Source of the DNA: Spiroplasma endosymbiont of Polydrusus cervinus
Lineage (GTDB): Bacteria > Bacillota_I > Bacilli_A > Mycoplasmatales > Mycoplasmataceae
Assembly (NCBI RefSeq): GCF_964019755.1
Contig: NZ_OZ026469.1
Coordinates: 62,001 to 126,000 of the forward strand
Direction of reading: 5' to 3'
Length of the DNA: 64,000 nucleotides
Shown here: one piece after another, positions 15,252 to 50,522 of the stretch
Layout of the letters: every line of letters starts with the position of its first letter
Numbering within the stretch: the stretch's first letter is position 1
The notes under the pieces: model-generated
Database searches by the model: none
The model's input: the letters and a program-made list of their open reading frames with translations, nothing else
What the model was told of the DNA's origin: nothing
Position numbers and translations under genes: made by a program

Positions 15252-15800
15252 ATGTCGCAAGAAGTTATTAATCAAACCAAAGAAAATATGGAGAAAGTGA
15301 TTGTTTCCTTTGAAAATGAATTAGTCAAAATTCGCACTGGTCGGGCTAATCCAAATATGTTATCATATATTATGATCGATTACTATGGAACATTAACCCC
15401 AATTCAACAATTAGCTAATATTATGGTTCCCGAGGCACGCCAATTAGTAATTAAACCATATGACCGTTCAATTATTAGTTTAATTGTTACAGCAATTAAT
15501 AAAGCCGATTTAGGGTTAACACCAAATTCGGAAGCAGATTTAATTCGGTTAAATATTCCCCCATTAATAGAAGAACGCCGAAAAATAATGGTTAAAGAAA
15601 TGTGAAAGGCAAGTGAGCAATTTAAAATTTCTGTTCGTAATGAACGTCGTGATAGTAATGAACATATTAAAAAAGATGGTGATTTAAACGAAGATGATAA
15701 AAAATATTATGAAGGGGAAGTTCAAAAATTAACTGATCAGTTTATTAAAAAGATTGATGAAAAAGCAACGTTAAAGGAAAAAGAACTAAGGGAAGTGTAA
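15252..15800 (+). CDS. frr: Ribosome recycling factor
   Basis: 182-residue factor that splits post-termination ribosomes with EF-G. The family blocks KIRTGRANPNMLSYI, YYGTLTPIQQLAN and VRNERRDSNEHIKKD are present. CAGGAGG at the end of pyrH serves as ribosome site. The last codons run into a plectroviral palindrome: the stop TAA at 15798-15800 lies inside its left arm, so the element supplies the stop codon. The overall length is nevertheless close to normal. Confidence 0.94.
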
Positions 15801-15875
15801 ATTGTAAATACCAAATCATAAAAAGTTAACTAAATCAATAGTTAACTTTTTATGATTTGGTATTTACAATTTACA
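15796..15875. repeat. 80-bp perfect palindrome at the frr stop (B-type arms)
   Basis: Two perfect 35-base arms (15796-15830 and 15841-15875) around a ten-base loop. The arm starts TGTAAATTGTAAATACCAAA. The same palindrome with a slightly different loop lies at 25995-26076 behind the permease. It could act as a strong hairpin at the 3' end of the transcript. Confidence 0.85.
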
Positions 15876-25979: not shown

Positions 25980-25994
25980 ATTTAAGGTTCTGAA

Positions 25995-26076
25995 TTGTAA
26001 ATTGTAAATACCAAATCATAAAAAGTTAACTATTAATTTAGTTAACTTTTTATGATTTGGTATTTACAATTTACAA
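25995..26076. repeat. 82-bp perfect palindrome after the permease (B-type arms)
   Basis: Same 35-base B-type arms as at 15796-15875, extended by one base, with loop TATTAATTTA. It begins 15 bases after the permease stop and runs straight into an IS30-type fragment. Confidence 0.85.
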
Positions 26077-26319
26077 TGAAAAACAATAGAAAAACATTTT
26101 AAAATAAGAGTTTATTTTTGTGATCCTGGTAAACTTCGCCAGAAAGCATTAGTAGAAAGAATAAATAGAGATATAAGGCGTTGATTGGGTCAAAATAAGC
26201 CATTAATTAATATTCGTAGTAGATTAAAATCTATTTTAGATATATTAAATACCACAATTAGACCTTGCTTGGAAAATTTTACATCAAGATAATATTTTAA
26301 AAAAATTTTTTTAAATTAA
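26077..26319 (+). pseudogene. IS30-family transposase (SpV1 type), 3' fragment
   Basis: Begins at WKTIEKHFKIRVYFCDPG, covers KALVERINRDIRRWLGQ and ends FKKIFLN. A Gln codon in TSRQYF has become TAA. Everything upstream of this piece is lost. Confidence 0.8.
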
Positions 26320-28736: not shown

Positions 28737-28875
28737 TTGTATACTGTAAAACTAAATAATAAAAAGTTAATAGAATTATAACAAATTAAAAATAAAAAAC
28801 AATAATCACAAAAAATATTAAATAAAAAATATTGTTTTTAATTTAATATTTTTTGTGATTATTGTTTTTTATTGG
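28737..28875. repeat. Head-to-head plectroviral A-type ends forming a long hairpin
   Basis: An A-type end on the minus strand (starting GTATACTGTAAAACTAAAT) is joined to the inverse of its inner part. ATAATCACAAAAAATATTAA and its complement face each other at about 28803-28872. It sits 40 bases after the exoribonuclease stop. Confidence 0.6.
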
Positions 28876-32121: not shown

Positions 32122-32936
32122 TTAACATATTTTTTTATAAAAAATATCACTATTTGTACCAAAAAAAATATCATCATTTTTATCAATAGCAATATATTTA
32201 TATGTTAATTTCGCATATTTATTAAAATTAAGAAATTTTTTTGCTTTGGTTTCATTGCTTTTAAATACATATATATTATTGTCTGTTCCAAAATAAACAT
32301 TATCTTTGCTATCAAAAACAATTGATAAAATCTTATCATTTATATCATTAATTTTATCGTCTATACCATTAATTTTGGTTACGGTGTCCGACCCAATGGG
32401 CAACTTATATACACTGTTGCGTGTACAAAAATAAACATTATCTTTACTATTAATTGAAATTAAATAGACCGCATCATTTATACCATTAATTTTGGTTGCG
32501 GTTTTTCCATCGTGTTTTAATACATATACACCATTATCTTCTGTTCCAAAATAAACATTATCTTTACTATCGATAATAGGCTTAATATTTTTTTTAATTG
32601 TATGTGAATCTTTTATTCCTTCAATTTTTACTGGCGTTGTTTCGCCTTGTTTTAATACATATATTTTTTTATTTCCAATAAAATAAACATTATTTTTACT
32701 GTCAGTTATAATATCAAATACATCTTCATCTATGCCAAAAATTTTATTAATAGATTTATTATTAAATTCTAAAAAATCATTTGTTGATATATTTTCATTG
32801 TCTTGCCTTTTAACTCTTTTTAATTTTTCTAAATTATTTGTTTTATTATTTTTTTATATGGGCTAGCAGCAATTACAGTTGGCATTGCAGTTCCGATAAT
32901 TGTTAATAAACTTAATAAACTTAAAAGTTTTTTCAT
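32122..32936 (-). pseudogene. Secreted repeat (propeller-like) protein, frameshifted in an A7 run
   Basis: Starts MKKLLSLLSLLTIIGTAMPT, then VIAA and SPYKK: a non-lipidated Sec leader typical of spiroplasma exported proteins, preceded by AAGAAGG. Immediately after SPYKK an A7 run puts the frame into a stop. One more A would give NNKTNNLEKLKRVKRQDNEN and an open frame to 32122. The mature part holds five repeats of ~45 residues built round SKDNVYFGT...VYVLK...TKINGI, which suggests a beta-propeller or ligand-binding surface. A homopolymer at this place could be a contingency switch, but A7 is short. Confidence 0.7.
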
Positions 32937-33123
32937 TTTGTATAATTTCCCTTCTTAAATCTCTAAACTTTCTTCATGATCTATTGACATTATATATATA
33001 TATACAAGCACTTTTAGAACTATTTTAGGAAGGCAGGAAATTGAAATAACTATTATCGCGGAATTATGATTGTAATAACAAGTATGGGGGACGCGGTGAT
33101 TTTTTGGCGTATTGTTTTTTTTG

Positions 33124-33260
33124 CTTTAATTTTGTCGAAAACTCTTGATATTTTAATAAAACCCTGATTTTATTGAGTTTTTGATAAAATGTATTTCTTG
33201 CAAATCTCTATATTTTATAAGGTTTTTTGACTTTATCAAGAGTTTTCGACAAAATTAAAG
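33124..33260. mobile_element. 137-bp MITE with 27-bp inverted ends and 8-bp target duplication
   Basis: Left end CTTTAATTTTGTCGAAAACT and on to CTTGATA; the right end is its exact inverse over 27 bases. The direct repeat TTTTTTTG flanks it at 33116-33123 and 33261-33268. There is no open frame. Long TIRs with 8-bp duplications are a feature of ISL3-family transposition, so an ISL3-type enzyme elsewhere in the genome may have moved it. Confidence 0.82.
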
Positions 33261-33900
33261 TTTTTTTGTGTGTTTTTGTTGTATTTTCATATAAAATAAT
33301 TCCCTGATATGGCGTTTAAAATGCTTAATAAATGGCAGATTATTTTAATTATTTATTTGACATTTATTTTAAATGACGATATCATCATGTAGTAAAACTG
33401 CATCACATGTCTCAAAAGGAAAAGACTAACAATAACGGTTGCTTAGTTATATGTTCGTTCGTTGTATATGTTTAAATTATATATATTGAAATGTGGGAAA
33501 CTATTTCTCATTAAATATAGCGAAAAATAAACAAAGCAGAAATTCTTAGTTTATTCCTTGGGTTTGATAAACCTAATAGTTATATTTAATTACCAAAAAA
33601 ATGAGTGTAGCATTAATTATTGAAAAGATAATTAAAAAATAGTTTCTGTCTGTGTCAAAGTCTATATAAAGCAAGATTAAAAAATGGAGCCCTATTCGTT
33701 AAATGGGAATTAAAAAGTTTTTTGAAACTGGTTGGCATAAGTGGGTATCACTATATATACAAAAATTATTGCTAGATTAAGTAAAGTGATATAACAGAAA
33801 AAAAGCATATATAATTTGCATAGACGGCGATAATCACGGTAGTCTGGTTTAATAAAAATTAATATAATAATATTTAATTATCGCCACCTCCTTTCTATTA

Positions 33901-35993: not shown

Positions 35994-36059
35994 CTCCTAA
36001 AATATTTAAAATGTTATAATTTATGTGCAATAATTATAACATTTTAAATATTTTAGGAG
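35994..36059. repeat. Perfect 27-bp-arm palindrome between IS30-type gene and lipoprotein remnant
   Basis: Arms CTCCTAAAATATTTAAAATG...TATAAT (35994-36020) and the exact inverse (36033-36059) around a 12-base loop. Each arm carries AGGAG and TATAAT, so it can serve divergent reading. The copy at 50457-50522 has a T-to-C change matched in the other arm. Confidence 0.75.
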
Positions 36060-50329: not shown

Positions 50330-50475
50330 ATTTTCAATTACTTCCAACTGGTGGTTGTTGTGGTTTGGGTTCTGGTTTATTACTCGCCGTTTTCAGTATT
50401 ATTTGGTTTTTCGTAACTAATTAATGATGTTGTACTTGTTGCTTTTAATCCGATTGCTCCTAAAATACTTAAAAT
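50330..50475 (-). pseudogene. Lipoprotein leader remnant, second copy
   Basis: Reads ILGAIGLKATSTTSLISYEK, PNNTENGE and a stop. The lipobox Cys is Tyr. It is the counterpart of 36048-36190. Confidence 0.5.
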
Positions 50476-50522
50476 GTTATAATTATTGCACAATAATTAT
50501 AACATTTTAAGTATTTTAGGAG
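50457..50522. repeat. Perfect palindrome before IS30-type gene, second copy
   Basis: Arms of 27 bases around TATTGCACAATA. Compared with 35994-36059, T has become C in one arm and A has become G at the paired position, so the arms are still perfect inverses. Confidence 0.75.

Follow-up and report, generated by a model that had tools for sequence, protein, structure and literature searches.

The DNA analyzed here, hereafter the window, is a stretch of 64,000 nucleotides (C1:62001-126000) from the single 1,120,781-bp contig, C1, that constitutes the genome of the Spiroplasma endosymbiont of Polydrusus cervinus. At positions 33124-33260 it contains a 137-bp element. A minus-strand gene with a broken frame presumably starts near 32935, with the element ~190 bp upstream of this start; on the element's other side, a promoter-like site lies at 33357-33385 (seven such sites were found, versus 5.9 expected by chance). 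When the genus was searched with the flanks of the element, the left flank proved to be part of a multigene family with many paralogues. The neighboring segment 32820-33103 comprises a conserved upstream region and the gene start of a large family of paralogues, which has many copies in the element's own genome and in genomes G008, G009, and G012. The parts of the element are as follows:

33124..33260, no strand given: 137-bp putative MITE, recognized by direct reading, repeat search, folding and relatives in G008
33124..33150, + strand: left terminal inverted repeat of 27 bp, 27/27 complementary to the right end
33234..33260, - strand: right terminal inverted repeat of 27 bp, 27/27 complementary to the left end
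33151..33233: core, common to the ten relatives in G008, with no recognizable insertion sequence (IS) origin past the sub-terminal bases
33116..33123, + strand: left copy of the target duplication, TTTTTTTG, by direct reading
33261..33268, + strand: right copy of the target duplication, TTTTTTTG, by direct reading

Both the inverted ends and the duplication were observed directly, as the sequence-only reading had described them. The repeat search returned 40-nt arms that were 88% complementary across 33124-33260, with the outer 27 pairs perfect. As a null, 40 copies of the window were generated with a first-order Markov model and searched for repeats within 600 bp, and the longest perfect inverted repeat found was 17 nt; the 27/27 ends are thus far above chance. 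Folding z-scores of the element were -9.6 (DNA) and -9.8 (RNA). An 8/8 duplication was obtained by chance with a probability of 1.6e-4 when the 60-bp flanks were shuffled, and identical 8-mer pairs at the same spacing occurred at 9 of 63,840 position pairs within the window. Taken alone, TTTTTTTG is weaker evidence than a mixed 8-mer would be because it is T-rich and of low complexity.

The element is short and encodes no transposase gene. It had been described as having no frame inside, and this holds in part: under genetic code 4 the third plus-strand frame is open over all 45 codons, but no protein likeness was found for it. No further copy of the element's end was present elsewhere in the window at up to three mismatches, and the earlier statement that no transposase with matching ends lies in the window was supported.

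Perfect inverted repeats are not unique to the element, as the window has five more perfect palindromes, with 28-39-bp arms and sequences that differ from that of the 137-bp element. An 80-84-bp near-perfect palindrome with arms of 37 and 39 bp (15796-15875 and 25994-26077) recurs genome-wide. The copy at 25994 gave 90 genome matches, both strands counted, at E-values up to 0.001, corresponding to ~45 places, and some copies of this type are oppositely oriented and separated by ~1.4-1.5 kb. At 35994-36059 and 50457-50522 lie two 66-bp hairpins that are almost identical in sequence and have mirrored flanks; they may belong to a repeated insertion element. An 83-bp palindrome with 33-bp perfect arms is located at 28791-28873, and part of it was also seen by eye in C1:433010-433800 (L224).

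Further copies and a full-length element with the same ends had been proposed as the search to make, and both types of relative were found. In the element's own genome there was no second 137-bp copy, and since the 137-bp form is single there, movement within this genome is not demonstrated. Two 997-bp elements with the same ends were present in opposite orientation at C1:988034-989030 and C1:965624-966620, identical to each other and both flanked by the 8-bp duplication CAAAGTTT. Their identity extends 130 bp past the left end and ~315 bp past the right end, which is most simply explained by one insertion that was later duplicated rather than by two insertions. They were the only loci in this genome to match PF12762 in a profile search. 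Both lack 145 bp present in an intact 1143-bp IS of G008, a deletion that takes out the zinc ribbon's second half and causes a frameshift. The 997-bp elements are defective IS1595-family insertion sequences with a broken transposase gene.

Using an end pattern that allowed up to three mismatches, we found matches in four of 14 genomes of the genus set (G000, G007, G008, and G012) and, across the taxonomic family, in the same four of 60 genomes; the reversed control pattern gave 0/14, and the control pattern 0/60. Of these, G008 (2,179,570 bp) corresponds to an S. phoeniceum MAG (CP110830.1), G007 is probably S. phoeniceum P40 (NZ_CP031088.1), and G000 and G012 are other members of the 14-genome set. 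By our pairing, the 36 ends per strand in G008 represent 26 IS copies (25 of 1143 bp and one of 2243 bp) and ten 137-bp MITEs. The genome has 26 transposase loci, 25 of which contain no TAA or TAG; 25 of the IS copies have an open 320-aa transposase frame, and the 1143-bp IS is a likely active parent in another Spiroplasma. The ten 137-bp relatives are 84-90% identical to the element in the window and, by flank similarity, occupy five sites: five copies share one repeated context, two share another and three are single. As aligned, only one of the five sites shows a full 8/8 duplication, and two have none; when the boundaries are moved by one base, one of the remaining two reaches 8/8 and the other 7/8. 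The window flanks did not match those of the G008 MITEs at 1e-6, so where some matches to G008 MITEs extended into the flanks, this was read as similarity of T-runs. A single 1141-bp IS copy was found in G007, whereas G012 yielded 151 transposase matches, many of them fragmentary. Four loci of G012 (L235, L236, L237, and L238) carry 92-bp near-perfect palindromes, in each of which the left IS end is joined to an inverted copy of itself. These share their ends with the element in the window but have no core and no visible 8-bp duplication at any of the four places, and are of other origin. The Nesidiocoris tenuis Spiroplasma also has a 1143-bp IS copy, flanked by the duplication ATATTTCA, on its plasmid pSNTEN_6 (AP029045.1); the transposase of this copy (L248, 1684-2643), annotated as a hypothetical protein, is 93% identical to that of G008. 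No exact copies of the 20-bp end were found in viral contigs, and phage records gave no match to the 1143-bp IS.

It is very unlikely that the element is not mobile but a chromosomal hairpin acting as a transcription terminator, structured RNA or regulatory repeat. Its very strong fold and the seven T residues directly after its right side would suit such a role, but a search of Rfam gave no match. No terminator-like site was found either, in a search whose loop limit of 8 excludes such a shape. Against a hairpin of this kind also stand the exact duplication on both flanks, the ends held in common with the IS, the relatives at unrelated sites and the absence of the hairpin from all 15 paralogous loci that were compared. 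Two of these 15 loci share both flanks, with nothing between them at L221 and another insert of ~270 bp at L223. With the element removed, the joined flanks align to L221 over 461 columns at 71% identity; L221 lacks about 25 bp around the flank junction and, with identity at this level, does not show the original target. Because the left flank has so many paralogues, orthologous and paralogous empty sites are inseparable here. The sequence-only reading had held that a single copy, together with empty-site homologues that carry the hairpin, would speak against a mobile element; the copy is indeed single in its own genome, but no empty-site homologue with the hairpin was seen.

Just as improbable is a full IS1595 copy that decayed and lost its inside in place, without ever having been mobile as a 137-bp unit. 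The single copy in its own genome and the IS-like ends are compatible with such a remnant, but in G008 five sites carry the 137-bp form with a related core, which argues that the short form itself spread. Alignment with the IS covers only positions 1-49 and 100-137 of the 137 bp; the core does not align, and the element is thus not a simple internal deletion of the IS. When a source for the core was sought in the IS and elsewhere in five genomes, the core matched only the MITEs, apart from short, weak matches. Two of these weak matches, at C1:454793 and C1:456485, were rejected as a source because they lie in unrelated sequence.

The family of the parent IS was determined from its transposase and its duplications. 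The 320-aa transposase scored 39.7 bits against the DDE domain PF12762 (DDE_Tnp_IS1595; cut-off 27) and 75.5 against NF033547, only 0.5 bit above the cut-off of 75. The G008 transposase scored 43.9 bits against the IS1/IS1595 zinc-ribbon model NF050000 (cut-off 28); the zinc ribbon is partly deleted in both IS copies of the element's own genome. Exact 8-bp duplications flanked all ten of the G008 IS examined, out of 26 copies. A wider sample was formed by 78 elements of 900-1200 bp, drawn from at least 92 paired elements in at least 120 stretches. Among the matches listed, IS with GTCG ends had an 8/8 duplication in 21 of 24 cases, and these 21 duplications were 90% A+T compared to 77% in the flanks; 8/8 duplications were found in just 4 of 36 IS with GTAG ends and in 5 of 18 others. 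The low rate among the GTAG-end IS counts against a uniform picture. Most of the GTAG-end and other IS presumably originate from the Nebria riversi symbiont, where the duplications could have been separated by recombination among its many copies. Mobilization of the element by an ISL3-family transposase, which the sequence-only reading had proposed with the 8-bp duplication as an argument, has a negligible probability: ISL3 elements likewise produce 8-bp duplications, but the ISL3 transposase domain PF01610 had no match in the element's own genome in a search that was positive in 4 of 14 control genomes, and the full-length elements with matching ends that were tested encode IS1595-family transposases and have 8-bp duplications. 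The parent IS has the DDE_Tnp_IS1595 domain, an N-terminal zinc ribbon and the 8-bp duplication, all of which are traits of the IS1595 family. According to excerpts of one source, this family usually produces 8-bp duplications and has a single transposase gene with a DDE_Tnp_IS1595 domain, and members outside the IS1016 group have an N-terminal zinc finger (PMC8101967).

The element at 33124-33260 is, with high probability, a non-autonomous MITE of a Spiroplasma IS1595-family insertion sequence and was presumably moved in trans. Movement in trans is suggested by the ends shared with the IS and by the same duplication size. An IS1595 transposase supplied in trans would recognize both 27-bp ends, move the 137-bp piece and insert it at an A+T-rich 8-bp target, which would thereby be duplicated. 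As the only IS1595 transposase genes found in its own genome are the two identical copies with the 145-bp deletion, the MITE is probably immobile there at present. Compared with the 1143-bp IS of G008, its left end has no mismatch in 27 and its right end has one, while comparison with its own genome's IS, or with that of G007, gives 1 and 2 mismatches in 27. The bases that differ are position 13 and, additionally, base 27 of the right end. At position 13, both arms have C in the window MITE, in 10/10 G008 IS examined and in the pSNTEN_6 IS, and both have A in 10/10 G008 MITEs and in the IS copies of the window MITE's own genome, so element ends and transposase appear to change together. It is conceivable, with the balance tilting somewhat against it, that the transposase behind the last move of the window MITE was a foreign IS1595 enzyme, perhaps plasmid-borne, and not that of the IS copies of its own genome.

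MITEs of this kind are already known, since excerpts of one report describe a Haloquadratum walsbyi IS1595-family MITE related to ISHwa6 that is 165 bp long, with seven copies, 25-bp inverted repeats and 8-bp direct repeats (PMC3852290). The window MITE shares its parent family and length class, has similarly long inverted ends and the 8-bp direct repeats, and likewise lacks a gene; the ISHwa6-type MITE differs in its archaeal host and lineage, and the window MITE has one copy in its host and ten in a relative. The window MITE also differs from the IS1595-family IS of the excerpted accounts in that it encodes no transposase. In E. coli, IS1595-family transposition of ISEc69/Tn7052 experimentally gave 8-bp A+T-rich duplications, as described in the excerpted text (PMC7835479); these are like those of the parent family here, although Tn7052 was studied as a composite transposon. 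No account of IS1595 or ISXO2 elements, or of MITEs, in Spiroplasma was found in the literature searched. IS1595 and ISL3 were absent from the available portion of PMC12453411, and "mite" in the portions of PMC12453411 and PMC8208695 refers to the animal. The present analysis ties a Spiroplasma MITE to a definite parent family and corrects the earlier guess of ISL3. It also provides a comparative set, made up of a genome with a broken IS and one MITE, a second with 26 IS and ten MITEs, and a third with 151 transposase matches, many of them fragments, that could allow the co-evolution of element ends and transposase to be traced.
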